Positions 36,046 to 45,667 of a stretch of DNA of 46,621 bases are shown piece by piece (positions within the stretch are counted from its first letter, which is position 1; each line of letters opens with the position of its first letter). The notes beneath the pieces are model-generated. The model ran no database searches. It had not been told where the DNA came from and saw only the letters and a program-made list of their open reading frames with translations. The DNA is from Clostridia bacterium (GTDB lineage Bacteria; Bacillota; Clostridia; Oscillospirales; CAG-272), in contig JAFTQT010000078.1 in the NCBI GenBank assembly GCA_017462615.1, positions 1-46,621 on the forward strand, in the 5' to 3' direction. The translations under genes and the position numbers were made by a program.

Positions 36046-37254
36046 TTATTTCTTTGCGCTGAAAAAGAGAAGTGCAACGGCGGTGCTCCAACGCAGCCCC
36101 CCGGCAATGACGGCAGCCACGGCAAAGCCCCAGACGTCAAAAAGAAGGGTGGCGGGGATGCCGAGGCCGATGAAGCAGAGGGCGAAAAGACCGTTGGTGT
36201 AGATCTGATAGCGCTTTTTGCCGAAGCGCACCAGCAGCGCGGTCAGAACGGTGGTGGTGAAGTACAGCACCTCGGAAAGGCTTCCGAGAATCAGATAGGG
36301 GGCAACGGCCGCGCGCTCCGCGGGATACAGCAGCAGGAGCGCCAAATACCCGCCCAGCGCCGCAGCGCCCGTGCAAAGCAGAATGACACAGAGGCTGACG
36401 GGAACGAGCCACCCCAGCGTCCGACGGCGCAGCCCGCCCTCGTAGCGGGCGAGATGGCCAAGCAAAACGCCGGAAAGGGGCGTAGAGACCAGGGACATGG
36501 TCTTGCCCACCAAGGTGGAGAGATAATAGACCGTAACGGCGGCAGGGCCCACCAGCAGCTTCAGCATCAGTCGGTCGGCGTTGAGAATGAGGTTGCCCAC
36601 GCCCTCGGAAAGACAAAGCAGCAGTAGCGCCCGCAGGGTGCTTTTTTCAAGATGCACGGCGGATGCTCCACCGCCCCGCAGCTCCTTTTCTGTGAGGTAT
36701 GCCATCAGCACGCCCGCAAGCTCGCCCGTGAGGATGGCAAGGGGCCAGATGCCGGTGCGGCAAAAGAGCAGTGCGCCCAGCACGTAGCCAACGCCGATGG
36801 TAAAGTAATAGAGAAAATAGCGGCGGTAGCAGAGCGTGATCTTATAGATCACGTCGGCGTAATACCGAAAGGCCATGGCCACGAACACCAGATAATAGGT
36901 GACGGTGGTGGGGAGATCCATGGAAACGCCACCAAAGCGGCGGATAAGAAGGCAGAAGGGAAGCCCCAGCAGGGAAACGGTCAGCAAAAAGCGGTTGTAG
37001 GAGCCCCCCGCGCCTTCTCGCTCCCTTTGGGGTGCGGTGATGCGGGAGAGATTGGCCGCTGTGCCGATGGAGACCGTTCCCACGTTGACGAAGGCCATCA
37101 GATATTGCAGCTCACCGTAGCGTACCTCGCCCATCATACGCGCCAGCAGCGGATAAAGCAGCAGCTGCGCCGCCGCTTGCATCAGCACAAGCCCCAGAAT
37201 ACTGTAGGTTGTGTCCCGCAGCTTATCCTTGTTGGCCTTCAGGTGCTCGATCAT
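36046..37254 (-). CDS. polysaccharide flippase, Wzx/MOP type
   Basis: The 402-residue protein has about twelve hydrophobic segments and begins with TTYSILGLVLMQAAAQLLLYPLLARMMG, the usual opening of MOP-superfamily (Wzx-like) lipid-linked oligosaccharide flippases. It would move an undecaprenyl-linked unit across the membrane. Its ATG overlaps the stop of the upstream aminotransferase-like gene in an ATGA arrangement (37251-37254), so the pair is coupled. Confidence 0.85.
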   Translation of the reverse strand: MIEHLKANKDKLRDTTYSILGLVLMQAAAQLLLYPLLARMMGEVRYGELQYLMAFVNVGTVSIGTAANLSRITAPQREREGAGGSYNRFLLTVSLLGLPFCLLIRRFGGVSMDLPTTVTYYLVFVAMAFRYYADVIYKITLCYRRYFLYYFTIGVGYVLGALLFCRTGIWPLAILTGELAGVLMAYLTEKELRGGGASAVHLEKSTLRALLLLCLSEGVGNLILNADRLMLKLLVGPAAVTVYYLSTLVGKTMSLVSTPLSGVLLGHLARYEGGLRRRTLGWLVPVSLCVILLCTGAAALGGYLALLLLYPAERAAVAPYLILGSLSEVLYFTTTVLTALLVRFGKKRYQIYTNGLFALCFIGLGIPATLLFDVWGFAVAAVIAGGLRWSTAVALLFFSAKK

Positions 37255-40692: not shown

Positions 40693-40843
40693 GCTTTGGG
40701 TCTCCTTAAAATGTGTGTTAGGTGAATGTCTTCATGTCTTGTTAGTTGCCGTATCTTTTCATTTCTTATTGAATGTCTTGGCTTTCGAAAAAGATTTGTC
40801 ATTAACAAAGGATAAAACGGCTTGGATTTTCACCCAAACCGAC

Positions 40844-43429
40844 TCAAGCCTTGCTTTCCGAAAGCTTGCGGACGAATTCGGTGATCTCGTTACCGATGCG
40901 CGTCAGCTCCTCCAGGAATTCCTTGGCGGTCATGCGGGAGATGCCCTCGTGGACTGCGGAGAATTGCAGAAGCTTGTCGTTTGTCACCGTGCGAATGCTG
41001 TAATCGGGGCCAAGCTCATGCATCATGCGCTCGATATACGCATCAGCAGTCTGATCGGCCTTGGTATATACGATTTTATAGCCGTCGTGCTTAAGCTCCG
41101 AGCCCTCGCCATCCTTCACGAGATATGCGTCAAACACCAGCACCAGCTCTGTCTTGGTATAGGAAACGTAGCTGCTGAGCAGATCCATCAGCTCCTCTCT
41201 GGCCTTTTCCAGACTGAACTGAGCGGTCTCCTTCAAGTGATCGTCGGTATAGATCAGGTTGTAGCCGTCAACGATCACCATGTTTCTCTTCGGGCGTGCC
41301 GTCTTTTGCTTGTGGGGCTTTCCTTGCCCGTCTCCGGAGATCACCTTGGGGTCGCTATATTGCTTGCGCTTGATGGGGCCGAATAGGCGGAGCATGATGG
41401 TCTCCAGCTCCTCGTCGCTGATGTGATAGTTTCGCGCCAGGGTGGTTGCCTTCGGCATGATGGTCGCGCTTGCGGAGGCATCCTTGAGGTCGACCTCCAG
41501 ATGCTTGTAGCTGTCAACCTCGCTCCAATGCACGGTAAAGCCTGCGCCGTGGGCGCAAAATACGGAATGGGGCGGGTTGTCAAGGTCGCCCTCGGGATCG
41601 TATCCCGTTTGGGCGACGATGTCCTCCTGATCGTGACAGGGCTCGTATCCATCCGAGGTGCAAAAGAGCCGCCCCTCGCCTCGGGTATATGCAATGACCT
41701 CCTTGGTGTAATCAAACAGCGTAGATACCGGTGCTCTGCCGCATATGGCGGTGCGCTCCGTGTCCGAGCCCTCCAGCTCGAAATCCGCGAAGCGCGCCTG
41801 CAGGTCGGACATGGCTCTCCCCACCGAGGCGGTTGGGATCTCCAGTCTGAAGTGGTAGTAGGGCTCCAGCAGCGTGCATCCCGCCTTCATCAGCCCGTGC
41901 CGTACCGCCCGGTAGGTGGCCTCACGGAAGTCGCCGCCCTCGGTGTGCTTCAAATGCGCCTTGCCCGCTACCAGCGTGATCTTGGTATCCGTCAGCAGAG
42001 CGCCCGTCAGCGTGCCGCGATGGTCCTTTTCGTACAGATGCGTGAGGATCAGCCTTTGCCAATTCAGATCCAGGGTGTTTTCGGGCAGACGTACGTCAAA
42101 GATCACTCCCGTGCCCTTGGGCTGCGGCTCGATCAGCAGCTGTACCTCTGCATAATGGCGCAGCGGCTCAAAGTGCCCGACGCCGATCGCCCTTCCCGCC
42201 GCCTTTTCTTTATAGAGTATTTTTCCTGCGCCAAGGGTGCAATCAATGGAGAATCTATCGTGGATCAGCCGTTTGATCAGCTCGGTCTGTACCTCACCCA
42301 TGAGTCGTGCCTCAATTTGCGAAAGCTCCTCGTTCCACATCAGATGGAGGGAGGGCTCTTCCTCCTCCAGCTCCTTCAGCTTCGGGAAGTAGACCCGCGT
42401 ATCGCATTCGGGAGGTAGATGAATGGCATAGGAGAGCACGGGCTCCAGCAGCGGCTTTTGCGTGTCCTGCTCAAGGCCGAGGCCCTGGCCGACGTAAGAG
42501 GCGGAAAGGCCGATCACCGCGCAGATCTCTCCGGCAGCAGCCGTATCGATCTGCTCAAATTTATCACCGGAGTAGAGCCTGATCTGGCTGATCTTTTCCG
42601 TGATGCGCGTCCCCTCCGGAGAAAGGTAGCTGATCTCATCCCGCGCGGATAAGGTGCCACCGGTGATCTTCATATAGGTCAGTCGCGACGTTCCTGTGCG
42701 CGATATTTTATAGACCCTTGCGCCAAAGCCCTCCTGGTCATAGATGGGGGAGAGGGTATATTTGTCCAGCGTATCCAGTAAATACTCTATGCCTTGCATC
42801 CGCAGGGCGGAGCCAAAGAGGCAAGGGAACAGCTTGCGGTGGCTGATCAGATCAGCGATATCGCCGTCGTCAACGCCCTCACCCGCAAGAAAGCTGTCCA
42901 TAAAATCCTCGTGCACAAAGGCGAGCTTTTCCTCCAGCTCCTCGCGCTGCTCCGCCTCCAAAAAGCCGACGCACAACGGGGACAGAACGGCCGCAAGCTC
43001 TTTTCCGAGCTCCTCCTTCCGTTTGATGGAGAGGTCGCATTTATTCACAAAAAGAAAGGTCGGCACGCCGTAATGCTCCAGCAGCTGCCAAAGCGTTCGC
43101 GTATGATTCTGTATTCCCTCCGAGGCGCTGATTACAAGCACGGCGTAGTCAAGAAGCGCCAGCGTGCGTTCGGTCTCTGCGGAAAAATCCACGTGGCCGG
43201 GCGTATCCAGGAGGATGAAGTCGCAATTCTCACTTGAAAATCTGGCCTGCTTGGAAAAAATGGTGATGCCGCGCTCACGTTCGATAGCATTGGTGTCAAG
43301 ATAGGTGTTTTTATGATCTACCCGCCCCAGGGTGCGGATCCTGCCCGAAACGTAGAGCAGCGCCTCGCTGAGGGTGGTTTTGCCCGCATCCACGTGAGCG
43401 AGAATACCAATGGTTATTTTCTTTTTCAA
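40844..43429 (-). CDS. TetM-like ribosomal GTPase fused to a YacP/Rae1-type NYN nuclease domain
   Basis: An 861-residue protein. Residues 1-~690 form an EF-G/TetM-like translational GTPase: P-loop GILAHVDAGKTTLSE, RERGIT, DTPGHVDF, NKCD and GSAL are all present, followed by EF-G-type domains II to V. In domain IV it has HLKHTEGGDFREATYRA where TetM has its YSPVS-type tip loop, so tetracycline rescue should not be assumed. After a basic linker (about 695-715) comes a NYN/PIN-like domain (about 716-846): VDGYNLIY, ELVLVFDAYLVK, YTKADQTADAYIE and TVTNDK, matching Bacillus subtilis YacP/Rae1, a ribosome A-site mRNA endonuclease. The start is a TTG with AAAGGAGG 7 bases upstream. Own promoter at 43463-43491. 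Inferred role: cutting mRNA on particular ribosomes. Confidence 0.88.
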   Translation of the reverse strand: MKKKITIGILAHVDAGKTTLSEALLYVSGRIRTLGRVDHKNTYLDTNAIERERGITIFSKQARFSSENCDFILLDTPGHVDFSAETERTLALLDYAVLVISASEGIQNHTRTLWQLLEHYGVPTFLFVNKCDLSIKRKEELGKELAAVLSPLCVGFLEAEQREELEEKLAFVHEDFMDSFLAGEGVDDGDIADLISHRKLFPCLFGSALRMQGIEYLLDTLDKYTLSPIYDQEGFGARVYKISRTGTSRLTYMKITGGTLSARDEISYLSPEGTRITEKISQIRLYSGDKFEQIDTAAAGEICAVIGLSASYVGQGLGLEQDTQKPLLEPVLSYAIHLPPECDTRVYFPKLKELEEEEPSLHLMWNEELSQIEARLMGEVQTELIKRLIHDRFSIDCTLGAGKILYKEKAAGRAIGVGHFEPLRHYAEVQLLIEPQPKGTGVIFDVRLPENTLDLNWQRLILTHLYEKDHRGTLTGALLTDTKITLVAGKAHLKHTEGGDFREATYRAVRHGLMKAGCTLLEPYYHFRLEIPTASVGRAMSDLQARFADFELEGSDTERTAICGRAPVSTLFDYTKEVIAYTRGEGRLFCTSDGYEPCHDQEDIVAQTGYDPEGDLDNPPHSVFCAHGAGFTVHWSEVDSYKHLEVDLKDASASATIMPKATTLARNYHISDEELETIMLRLFGPIKRKQYSDPKVISGDGQGKPHKQKTARPKRNMVIVDGYNLIYTDDHLKETAQFSLEKAREELMDLLSSYVSYTKTELVLVFDAYLVKDGEGSELKHDGYKIVYTKADQTADAYIERMMHELGPDYSIRTVTNDKLLQFSAVHEGISRMTAKEFLEELTRIGNEITEFVRKLSESKA

Positions 43430-43462
43430 AGCGCGCCCTCCTTTCCATCAAAGCCTTTGATG

Positions 43463-43491
43463 ATTATATCACATTTCCGGCGGTTTTTCAA
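43463..43491 (-). promoter_or_regulatory. promoter of the GTPase-nuclease fusion
   Basis: On the minus strand TTGAAA (43491-43486) and a perfect TATAAT (43468-43463), 17-base spacer, giving a short leader of about 25 bases before the TTG start. Confidence 0.8.
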
Positions 43492-43643
43492 TATCGTATC
43501 GGATATATCTTCGAATATGTCTTCCGCCTCGGAGCGCGACTCGCGATGGAGGTACAATCGGACGCAACCGAATAATGAGTCAGGCATCGGTGAAATTACC
43601 GATGCCCAAATTACATAAATATCGTGGAAAGCCGCAAATATAG

Positions 43644-43672
43644 TTGAAATATTCATAATAGTATGATATAAT
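43644..43672 (+). promoter_or_regulatory. promoter of a candidate small RNA
   Basis: TTGAAA (43644-43649) and TATAAT (43667-43672), 17-base spacer, in a gene-free stretch (43492-43868). A terminator follows about 95 bases downstream with no plausible coding sequence between. Confidence 0.65.
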
Positions 43673-43678
43673 TATTTT

Positions 43679-43771
43679 ATAAAAATACGTTCCACATAAG
43701 GTTGTGGGAAATTAATCTATCTAAGAACGACGATGCGCCCATAGCTTTGGATAAGTTATGGGCGCATTTCG
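43679..43771 (+). ncRNA. candidate small RNA of about 93 nt
   Basis: Bounded by the promoter at 43644-43672 and a 15-bp hairpin with one G-T pair (43733-43747 with 43753-43767) followed by TTCGTTTA. A first hairpin (TTCCACA with TGTGGGAA, 43690-43710) precedes it; between the two lies an AT-rich single-stranded segment. No reading frame with a ribosome binding site is present. I do not recognise an Rfam family. It may be a trans-acting sRNA or a leader for the sigma operon if the terminator is leaky. Confidence 0.5.
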
Positions 43772-43840: not shown

Positions 43841-43868
43841 GGTGAGGCACACAAAGGAAGGTGATGAT

Positions 43869-44426
43869 ATGGACGATAGTAAGATAATTGAATTGTTCTA
43901 CGAGCGCTCGGAACAAGCAATCGTTGAGCTATCGAAAAAGTATGGAGATACTTGTCATAAAATCGCCGTCAATATTCTGAAAAACGATCCCGATGCCGAG
44001 GAATGTGTCAACGATACCTACTTAGGGGCTTGGAACTCTATACCGCCTCAAAATCCTAATCCTCTACTTACCTATATTTGTCGCATTGTTCGGAACATAT
44101 CTATCAAGCGTTATCATCAAAACACCGCAAAGAAGCGAAACAGCTACTACGACGTGGCTCTTGACGAGCTTGAAAACTGTTTGCCCTCTGCCACAAACGT
44201 GCAGGACGAGGTTAACGCCAAAGAGCTTACCGAGTTATTCGATGATTTCCTTGACGGCTTGGATAAAACCAATCGCATTATGTTCGTAAGGCGTTATTGG
44301 TTTTCAGATTCCATTTCAGATATTGCGGCAATGTTCAAAATGAACAACCACGCTGTAACTGTCCGTCTTTCTCGCACAAGAGAAAAGCTCAGGCAGTACC
44401 TAATTGAAAAAGGAGTCACAATATGA
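43869..44426 (+). CDS. ECF-type sigma-70 factor
   Basis: The 185-residue protein has region 2 (ERSEQAIVELSKKYGDTCHKIA, DAEECVNDTYLGAWNSIP, PLLTYICRIVRNISI) and region 4 (NRIMFVRRYWFSDSISDIAAMF, then helix NHAVTVRLSRTREKLRQYL). Regions 1 and 3 are absent, as in ECF factors. The start at 43869 follows AAGGAAGGTG. Its stop overlaps the ATG of the next gene (ATGA, 44423-44426), the usual coupling of an ECF factor with its membrane anti-sigma. Base composition is clearly AT-richer than the rest of the window. Confidence 0.92.
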   Translation: MDDSKIIELFYERSEQAIVELSKKYGDTCHKIAVNILKNDPDAEECVNDTYLGAWNSIPPQNPNPLLTYICRIVRNISIKRYHQNTAKKRNSYYDVALDELENCLPSATNVQDEVNAKELTELFDDFLDGLDKTNRIMFVRRYWFSDSISDIAAMFKMNNHAVTVRLSRTREKLRQYLIEKGVTI

Positions 44427-45667
44427 AAAGAGAAAAAATTTCTGAAGCTATGGGAAATATTAGTTCCCGACACATCAAAGAAGCGGCAGAGTTTAAGGCA
44501 GACGAAAAACCTCACCGAAACAAGAACGCTTGGATGAAGTGGGTGTCAATTGCTGCTTGCTTTTGCTTGATAATTACGGGCGTATTTGCTGCCTTTCAAA
44601 TGGGATTGTTTGATAACAACGAGTTGGGTGATTATGATCCCGAAATTATACCCGGTAATGACGGTAACACAAATCCCGATATTGACGACAATGAATATAA
44701 CAACATATTCAGTATCGCCAATGGTTCGCTTTACTTGGAAATCTATGATGCTTATACAATCCCAAATGAAGCAGACGTCATTACGATTTATCTGAGTGAA
44801 TGTAAAGGAAATAACGAAGTATTCTTCCGTTCATCGAATAAAATTGCTGATCAAGTTATCCGACGTATCGAATCCACGGACGGCAAGCAAGTAGCAACTA
44901 ATAATAACGGTATATTTACACTCGATTTATTTGAAGATCAAGATTTTGTTGCACTTAACCTATACTTTGATGCCGGAACGTTCCAAAAAAGTGTAGAAAT
45001 TAACGGCGGCACGGGTGGAAACGAGAATGTTGACTACGATCCTAACGCCCCCGTAGATGAAGATGTATATGATGACCACGCTTCCTCTACTACTGCAATC
45101 CCTGCAACCGTATATTTTGAATGTTCTGCAATACTTCCCGATCGTGGATACGATGAAATACACTTCTCTCGTGTTTTGTCTGCGATTTCCAATGAGCCTA
45201 AAGTGAACATTTTTGGAACTACCGACAACCTCGAAGAAGCTATAAACGCAGTAGGATTGCAAGCACTAATTTTGTTTGAAGAATATACCCCCACAAACAT
45301 TAGCTATAAAAAAACAAACGAAAATGCACTTGTGACATATCAATATGGCGCAAACGCTACCGTTACTGTGCGCATCTATGAGTATTACAACATTGACTAT
45401 ACGCTTGAAACCTTTGTGTATTCAACCAATGTAATTGATTATGATCTGTACCCATGGGCTACCGAAACAGCAAGAGAAAAAGACGGACTTCCGTACAGCC
45501 TCCACGTTTGCTACAAGAATGATGATGAGTGGAAATCCGAAATAGCCGTGCTCAATTACACAGGAGATGGTAACAACATCTTTTTCGTGGTTCAATTCGA
45601 TCTTTCGGGTGAAAACATAGAGCAAGATGTTAAGCTCCTTTTGGAACAGATGACATTCGTTAAATAA
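44423..45667 (+). CDS. one-pass membrane protein, putative anti-sigma factor
   Basis: The 414-residue protein begins with a cytoplasmic segment of about 36 residues (KREKISEAMGNISSRHIKEAAEFK), then one transmembrane helix (about 37-60, WVSIAACFCLIITGVFAAF), then a large extracellular part rich in Asp, Asn and Tyr with two Asp/Pro/Gly-rich linkers. This topology and the 4-base overlap with the sigma gene are typical of anti-sigma factors that release sigma on an external signal. No zinc-binding HXXXCXXC motif is seen in the N-terminal part. The extracellular sensor domain is not recognised. Two lipoprotein genes follow. Confidence 0.75.
   Translation: MKREKISEAMGNISSRHIKEAAEFKADEKPHRNKNAWMKWVSIAACFCLIITGVFAAFQMGLFDNNELGDYDPEIIPGNDGNTNPDIDDNEYNNIFSIANGSLYLEIYDAYTIPNEADVITIYLSECKGNNEVFFRSSNKIADQVIRRIESTDGKQVATNNNGIFTLDLFEDQDFVALNLYFDAGTFQKSVEINGGTGGNENVDYDPNAPVDEDVYDDHASSTTAIPATVYFECSAILPDRGYDEIHFSRVLSAISNEPKVNIFGTTDNLEEAINAVGLQALILFEEYTPTNISYKKTNENALVTYQYGANATVTVRIYEYYNIDYTLETFVYSTNVIDYDLYPWATETAREKDGLPYSLHVCYKNDDEWKSEIAVLNYTGDGNNIFFVVQFDLSGENIEQDVKLLLEQMTFVK

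Follow-up and report, generated by a model that had tools for sequence, protein, structure and literature searches.

The question raised by this locus is what a single protein that joins a ribosomal GTPase to an mRNA nuclease does. In this study, we have explored a 46,621-nucleotide stretch of DNA (hereafter the window) from a Clostridia bacterium of the Oscillospirales (CAG-272; assembly GCA_017462615.1, contig JAFTQT010000078.1), in which an uninterrupted frame of 861 amino acids (aa) with a TTG start, at 40844-43429 on the minus strand, encodes a GTPase, an extension and an NYN nuclease domain. A preliminary description of this gene, made from the sequence alone, had read it as a TetM/EF-G-type GTPase fused to a nuclease like Bacillus subtilis YacP/Rae1, had doubted the tetracycline resistance label, and had proposed a new quality-control or stress system. 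Comparing the fusion with its relatives, we consider it probable that the protein is Rae1, the endonuclease of the ribosomal A site, in a one-piece form delivered by its GTPase.

Both halves are evident from profile searches. Pfam places GTP_EFTU at residues 3-225 (E 6.8e-51), EFG_IV at 420-516, EFG_C at 520-601 and NYN_YacP at 718-858 (E 4.8e-36; 124.7 bits against a cut-off of 24.6). An assembly error or chance joining was ruled out, since all 67 long NYN frames fetched from other genomes carry the GTPase and the linker (the GTPase being incomplete in two, L172 and L213); the continuous frame announced in the preliminary description is therefore real. The gene, its parts and its signals are listed here, with conservation taken from the alignment of fused homologues and with G014 denoting a genome of the same genus code as the window:

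40844..43429, minus strand: fusion gene, 861 aa, TTG start, from Pfam domains and structure-sequence matches
43463..43491, minus strand: predicted sigma-70-type promoter, TTGAAA-17-TATAAT with extended TG, 11 of 12 consensus matches, present in the G014 copy too
43436..43444, minus strand: ribosome-binding site AAAGGAGGG, read directly; the G014 equivalent is AAAGGAGGA
42755..43429, minus strand: GTPase (G) domain, aa 1-225, with motifs AHVDAGKT, RGIT, DTPGH, NKCD and GSA, from Pfam and from conservation over the 81-84 fused rows with a letter there
42215..42754, minus strand: domains II-III, aa 226-405, approximate limits, from EF-G_D2 and EFG_III slightly below Pfam cut-offs and homology to TetO/TetM/EF-G
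41870..42214, minus strand: domain IV, aa 406-520, approximate limits, from EFG_IV
41927..41950, minus strand: domain IV tip loop KHTEGGDF, aa 494-501, K494 being aligned with the TetM Pro509 position
41627..41869, minus strand: domain V, aa 521-601, from EFG_C
41360..41626, minus strand: extension, aa 602-690, a GYDPxxDxxNxxxSVFCxHGAGFxVxWxEV module followed by EELxxIxxRxxGPIKR, from alignment conservation
41282..41359, minus strand: Lys-rich variable tether, aa 691-716, with 0/26 columns at least 95% conserved
40847..41281, minus strand: Rae1/YacP-type NYN nuclease domain, aa 717-861, with D721, D767, D796 and D818, from Pfam, structure-sequence match and alignment
40818..40841, minus strand: terminator-like stem-loop directly 3' of the stop codon, 10 pairs (5 G-C) with a T-rich tail, absent from G014

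The nuclease domain is of the Rae1 type. Its 145 residues match the B. subtilis YacP structures 5mq8 and 5mq9 with an E value of 9e-20, the next-best chain having E 0.26. The motifs VDGYN, VFDAYLVK, TADAYIE and TND, as well as HTEGGDF in domain IV, stand in the frame exactly as had been claimed. When 86 fused and 60 stand-alone NYN domains are aligned (11 fused rows come from a contig scan and may overlap other survey genomes), none of the 146 deviates at D721, D767, D796 or D818, the counterparts of D7, D53, D81 and D104 in B. subtilis Rae1; of these we take D7 and D81 to be the catalytic residues. The loss of acidic residues across homologues that the preliminary description had named as a refutation is not seen in any of the 86 fused rows, and in every one of them the NYN domain is C-terminal, in one fixed order. 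Separately, 12 of the 23 plasmid records matching NYN are from Clostridioides difficile, and the eight of these that were listed (H18-H25) are 38% identical to the NYN domain of the fusion.

The carriers identified by name are Clostridia, among them Lachnospiraceae, Oscillospiraceae, Monoglobus and Agathobacter. In a survey of 195 genomes of the class with a completeness of at least 95% (the window's own genome, 78% complete, was also counted), NYN_YacP scored above its cut-off in 132, as 68 long frames, 60 stand-alone proteins of 160-216 aa, and four frames of 295-376 aa which were counted as fused on the basis of a linker match within or beside them. This gives 72 genomes with the fusion, 60 with a stand-alone Rae1 and none with both above cut-off; three fusion genomes (G175, G228, G262) hold a second, short NYN match below it, and no fusion genome of this set encodes the linker-bearing GTPase as a separate gene. 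GTPase relatives with no NYN domain in the same frame, identified by the linker profile only and not by their tip sequence, occur in 14 of the 195, eight of which (G117, G161, G183, G200, G217, G235, G263, G268) have Rae1 as a separate gene; in G260, a linker-like scrap of 44 aa adjoins a stand-alone Rae1. When the draw was widened to 393 genomes, 250 had an NYN_YacP match and five had more than one (G175, G228, G262, G424, G338); since the matches listed do not cover all of them, exact counts rest on the 195-genome set, which largely overlaps this draw. A draw across the phylum with the linker profile only was positive in 37 of 398 genomes, 30 of them in fusion-sized frames (857-937 aa), and a contig scan gave 80 loci among the matches listed, mostly EF-G-like, with 11 fused. 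Two fusions look incomplete or broken, one in G244 (L213), whose frame is without part of the GTPase, and one in G289 (L344), which is split over two frames.

The relation between the fusion and Rae1 is clearest from the place that rae1 occupies. Among 58 of the 60 stand-alone loci (L268 and L298 were lost from the neighbour analysis), 53 have rlmB as the immediate upstream neighbour and 48 have sigH as the immediate downstream one, with cysS or thyX often further upstream; the names rlmB, sigH, cysS and thyX were checked by profile, with one representative each. Another gene often found upstream, which gave no NCBIfam match, is presumably mrnC. The fusion does not sit in this rlmB-sigH place: rlmB was among the four nearest genes per side at none of 75 fused loci, and a sigH-family gene two genes away was found at one. 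The fusion of G245 is close to the former rae1 site, some 3.5 kb away from sigH. None of 30 fusion genomes sampled has an intact rae1 beside rlmB. In 18 of them rlmB is followed by sigH or a sigH-like gene, either directly adjoining (five genomes) or across a gap of 59-570 bases (13 genomes), and the other 12 have none within the flank. Within the 13 gaps, which were those tested for remnants, pieces of rae1 lie in five, namely G080 (63 bits), G171 (52), G153 (35), G191 (35) and G132 (32), while the best of 650 shuffled gaps reached 29.3 bits, with shuffling by two-base blocks that is not strictly dinucleotide-preserving. G424, with the fusion and a decayed rae1, is a sixth genome with a remnant.

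The replacement can also be followed among close relatives. In a genus of 11 genomes, all four stand-alone genomes keep rae1 between rlmB and sigH and have no fusion, and all seven fusion genomes are without an intact rae1, a clear remnant being present in G080 only. SigH is 96% identical between G108 (rae1) and G080 (fusion and broken rae1), and 97% identical between G447 (rae1) and G307 (fusion). In the family f71, G338 has both genes, G153 and G132 have remnants, and the gap of G245 holds no significant piece. The fusion appears to take rae1's place in the genome, with G338 as the exception. This series, from both genes to a remnant and then to none, is our best evidence that the fusion takes over the Rae1 task; functional equivalence of the two is what the genomic evidence most likely points to, and the replacement appears to have happened more than once in Clostridia. 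Two trees of the NYN domain (138 columns; 68 rows in the second, which left out up to nine long-branch rows and family duplicates) are weakly resolved and do not unite the fused rows in one clade (4 and 3 label changes). Two stand-alone rows, L251 and L264, fall inside the fused side of the second tree. L251 (genome G263) is not behind rlmB and its genome also holds an NYN-less GTPase of this group, and it may be a split fusion; for L264, tree error is the more likely explanation because it is behind rlmB.

The GTPase half is homologous to both TetM and EF-G and scores well below the family cut-offs of either. Over the first 600 residues, the closest solved structures by sequence are TetO (E 2e-69) and TetM (E 6e-66). 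The G motifs and domains II-V of EF-G/EF2-family translational GTPases are present, domains II and III at scores slightly below Pfam cut-offs. The NCBIfam resistance model tet_protect (NF012153) yields 391 bits against a cut-off of 775 and the EF-G equivalog TIGR00484 243 against 659; a 712-aa EF-G-sized homologue is encoded by a separate gene in the window's genome. As the preliminary description had stated, the G motifs are intact, the P-loop lysine and DTPGH each being kept in 83/83 fused rows with a letter there. Domain IV has the largest share of conserved columns among the domains (39/115 at 95% or more), and its tip KHTxGGDF is near-invariant: His495, Thr496, Asp500 and Phe501 are kept in 86/86 fused rows, Gly498 in 83 and Gly499 in 82. 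Lys494, kept in 84/86 (with Gln and Arg in one each), aligns gap-free with Pro509 of TetM, which in excerpts of two reports overlaps the tetracycline site (PMC7456112, PMC8161019), and the TetM tip STPADF is found in 0/86 fused rows.

In a quick tree of 69 GTPases, the rows with the KHT tip, 48 of them fused and 6 unfused, fall into a single clade (SH-aLRT 100), and these 54 stand apart from two TetM/O-type, three HTHPLDF-tip and ten EF-G-like rows. Unfused rows from Neobacillus, Intestinibacter and G023 branch outside the fused rows and unfused actinobacterial rows (Bifidobacterium twice, Collinsella) inside them; with many forks of the tree open, the simplest reading would be one fusion event and then a later loss of NYN. 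One genome, G036, holds both the fusion and a separate protein with a TetM-type tip. The lysine at the Pro509 position, the missing TetM tip and the separate clade support the view that tetracycline resistance is a doubtful label for the fusion. The three HTHPLDF-tip proteins (L015, L098, L235; 659-696 aa, without a nuclease) represent a further GTPase subfamily that is neither TetM-like nor KHT-like.

Right after domain V follows the conserved module GYDPxxDxxNxxxSVFCxHGAGFxVxW, and a similar module terminates the unfused relatives whose tails were read, L091, truncated at a contig edge, being the exception. In the fusion it continues into the moderately conserved EELxxIxxRxxGPIKR stretch and then into the variable, Lys-rich tether. 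In a comparison of the window's copy with that of G014, which at 86% identity is the closest full-length relative found, dN/dS is 0.06-0.09 in domains G to V and 0.12 in NYN, as against 0.29 in the extension and 0.30 in the tether. The GTPase and NYN halves are both under selection, and the tether is loose.

How could the two halves work together? Rae1 cuts mRNA in the ribosomal A site (excerpts of PMC6613710 and PMC12320835), and the binding site of Tet-type proteins coincides in part with that of EF-G and with the tetracycline site in the A site (PMC8161019, likewise in excerpt); therefore the nuclease of the fusion should be delivered to ribosomes whose A site is open. In our model, the GTP-bound EF-G/TetM-like part would bind the factor site of a paused or stalled ribosome with an open A site, where the tip KHTxGGDF of domain IV would reach the decoding centre and test or clear the A site. 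GTP hydrolysis would then pull domain IV back, and the NYN domain, carried on the extension and the flexible Lys-rich tether, would enter the emptied A site and cut the mRNA, after which the message would be degraded and the ribosome could be rescued. The sequences themselves show the architecture, the intact G motifs and nuclease residues, selection on the two halves and, in many genomes, replacement of the stand-alone Rae1, whereas ribosome binding, the order of the steps with its GTP timing, cleavage and rescue are inferred. The model has two steps, with domain IV leaving before NYN enters, because both parts compete for one place.

Several observations weigh against reading the fusion as a GTPase-delivered Rae1. 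A domain IV that fills the A site would exclude NYN at the same time, and this is what forces the two steps on the model. No score above 25 bits, and none above the shuffles, came from the other eight of the 13 rlmB-sigH gaps. In addition to the fusion, G338 has a stand-alone rae1 that is intact and in the customary position, so coexistence is possible; G338 is the one genome in the 393-genome draw that truly carries both. In the window's own order, NYN_YacP was found in only 12 of the 59 closest relatives, all 12 fused or reaching the GTPase where a contig end cuts the frame; Rae1 is thus dispensable there, and replacement is not visible. In the nuclease domain, the tryptophan at position 729, kept in 78/86 fused and 58/60 stand-alone rows, is lost from the window copy. 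Finally, six class genomes (G083, G086, G111, G125, G232, G257) have the GTPase alone and no Rae1.

The last observation leads to another explanation, in which the GTPase acts as a translation factor in its own right (clearing the A site, for example, in an EF-G-like way) and NYN is merely carried along as an ordinary Rae1. Since NYN-less relatives occur in genomes without any Rae1, the GTPase does have some job of its own. In addition to the 14 NYN-less class genomes, eight of them with a Rae1 beside, NYN-less proteins in which the KHT tip was read exist in Bifidobacterium, Collinsella, Neobacillus and Intestinibacter, and Rae1 does not need the GTPase, because a clear relative of this GTPase is missing from 52 of the 60 genomes in which Rae1 stands alone. 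Nevertheless, a passenger domain does not agree with the single fixed order in 86/86 fused rows, with selection on both halves, or with a fusion that in the 195-genome set never occurs together with either part as a separate gene, and we regard this explanation as unlikely. Slightly less likely still is the 2015 proposal, by which the fusion protects ribosomes from tetracycline and its added RNase aids resistance. TetO and TetM are indeed its nearest structural relatives by sequence, NCBI labels one of two plasmid-borne fusions as TetM/TetW/TetO/TetS family (the other as translation factor GTPase family), and the patchy distribution with unrelated flanks resembles that of a mobile resistance gene. 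However, the low tet_protect score, the lysine in place of Pro509, the absence of STPADF, the separation of the KHT clade from the TetM/O-type rows and the G036 genome with its additional TetM-type tip all speak against it. The combination of a putative ribosome sensor with a nuclease, on a self-contained and patchily spread gene, would also suit a defence or growth-arrest factor, with the GTPase as the sensor of a disturbed ribosome and the nuclease as the means of stopping translation. PADLOC gave no match, every neighbour family is limited to 8 or fewer of the 75 fused loci (neighbours were not scanned against defence models), and the fusion stands in for Rae1, which makes such a role very improbable.

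The surroundings of the gene bear on how it came to be distributed. Between the window and G014, DNA similarity is confined to 40849-43499, that is, the gene plus 70 bases with the promoter, which in the G014 copy sits barely within the upstream limit of homology; the flanks are unrelated within the stretches compared. A shared operon was dismissed, since a search with a positive control did not find the window's neighbour genes near the fusion in six relatives. The predicted promoter ends 33 bases ahead of the start codon and the hairpin follows the stop, so that, judging from these consensus matches, the fusion looks like a single-gene transcription unit. A 76-aa open reading frame upstream (43426-43656) was judged spurious because it overlaps the promoter and has no match near the fusion in the six relatives. 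In G080, the fusion lies at a different locus and is 73-74% identical to three fusions of its own genus and 74% identical to those of G076 (f43) and G153 (f71), whereas SigH is 89-90% identical within the genus and 75-81% identical to the families of G076 and G153. RlmB is as flat as the fusion (67-70% within the genus, 67-71% outside), and because RlmB shows this pattern and SigH does not, G080 offers only moderate evidence for transfer. Vertical inheritance alone was judged unlikely on this mixed evidence; an old coexistence of the fusion and rae1 followed by differential loss is a possible alternative. The copies of G175, G228 and G262 have common neighbours, so they were inherited together. 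Over at least 80% of its length, the fusion is carried by 2 of 72,556 plasmid records and 2 of 50,697 phage records, the latter both unannotated faecal 'Bacteriophage sp.'. Based on these comparisons, the fusion has likely spread horizontally as a self-contained gene.

On an Agathobacter rectalis plasmid (L340:7531-10775), the fusion adjoins genes annotated as a BrnT family toxin and a CopG family antitoxin. In the window, a sigma-70/ECF-type sigma factor gene, divergent from the fusion, overlaps a 414-aa frame without a Pfam match (43842-45667) whose product is perhaps an anti-sigma factor, and a plus-strand hairpin of 16 pairs with a T-rich tail (43732-43768) lies between the fusion and the sigma factor gene. 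Elsewhere (36046-37254), a 402-aa frame without a Pfam or NCBIfam match adjoins a DegT-type aminotransferase gene.

The fusion architecture itself is not new. As an excerpt of Atkinson 2015 (PMC4342817) describes, Tet proteins of ten clostridial species carry a YacP-like NYN domain, whose RNase activity was suggested to aid antibiotic resistance. These proteins have the same two domains and, compared by description only, are probably the same family; the excerpt treats them as Tet proteins, and what is added here is the separate GTPase clade, the different tip and the replacement of Rae1. Searching the literature beyond that paper, we found no other description of the fusion, in a search that was limited on the Rae1 literature. 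The idea of a new quality-control or stress system is consequently not upheld, for an architecture that was published in 2015, is widespread and looks like a re-packaged Rae1; the part of the proposal that concerns a ribosome-directed mRNA nuclease is supported by the replacement of Rae1 in genomes. B. subtilis Rae1 can be aligned with 143 of the 145 residues of the C-terminal domain and has identical acidic residues, but it is a stand-alone protein, with clostridial relatives in the rlmB-sigH cluster, whereas the NYN domain of the fusion is tethered to a GTPase and mostly found at other loci. TetM and TetO share the domain plan G-II-III-IV-V over about 600 aa of homology, and unlike them the fusion lacks STPADF, continues after domain V with an extension and a nuclease, and falls well below the resistance-model cut-off. 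EF-G has the fold and the G motifs in common with the fusion and differs in its equivalog score and tip, the EF-G-sized homologue being a separate gene. The unfused KHT-GTPases of Bifidobacterium, Collinsella, Neobacillus and Intestinibacter belong to the same clade, share the tip and have a similar SVFC-HGAGF-type extension, but they end after it, without a nuclease.

Another unfused relative, labelled TetM family, lies on plasmid pMP118 of Ligilactobacillus salivarius UCC118 (L341:4526-6917), where it adjoins an annotated rpsN (ribosomal protein S14). Such a GTPase, whose likeness rests on homology and not on the tip, is found in 13 L. salivarius plasmid records among the matches listed. Caution is needed with this label, as it has been given to some proteins of another GTPase group, namely one fusion record and the Ligilactobacillus records.

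In a bolder form, which we put forward tentatively and hold to be somewhat less probable than its failure, the KHT-GTPases would be an undescribed family of translation factors that recognise ribosomes with an open A site. The fusion would have turned one of them into a GTP-clocked loader of Rae1, a single-protein machine for surveillance and mRNA cutting that travelled as a self-contained gene and took over from Rae1 repeatedly in the Clostridia, and the tetracycline label would be wrong. To our knowledge, what directs Rae1 to the right ribosomes is an open question. The fusion provides a single protein in which the GTPase and the nuclease can be switched off separately, and its displacement of Rae1 suggests that Rae1 can be directed by being joined to a translational GTPase.

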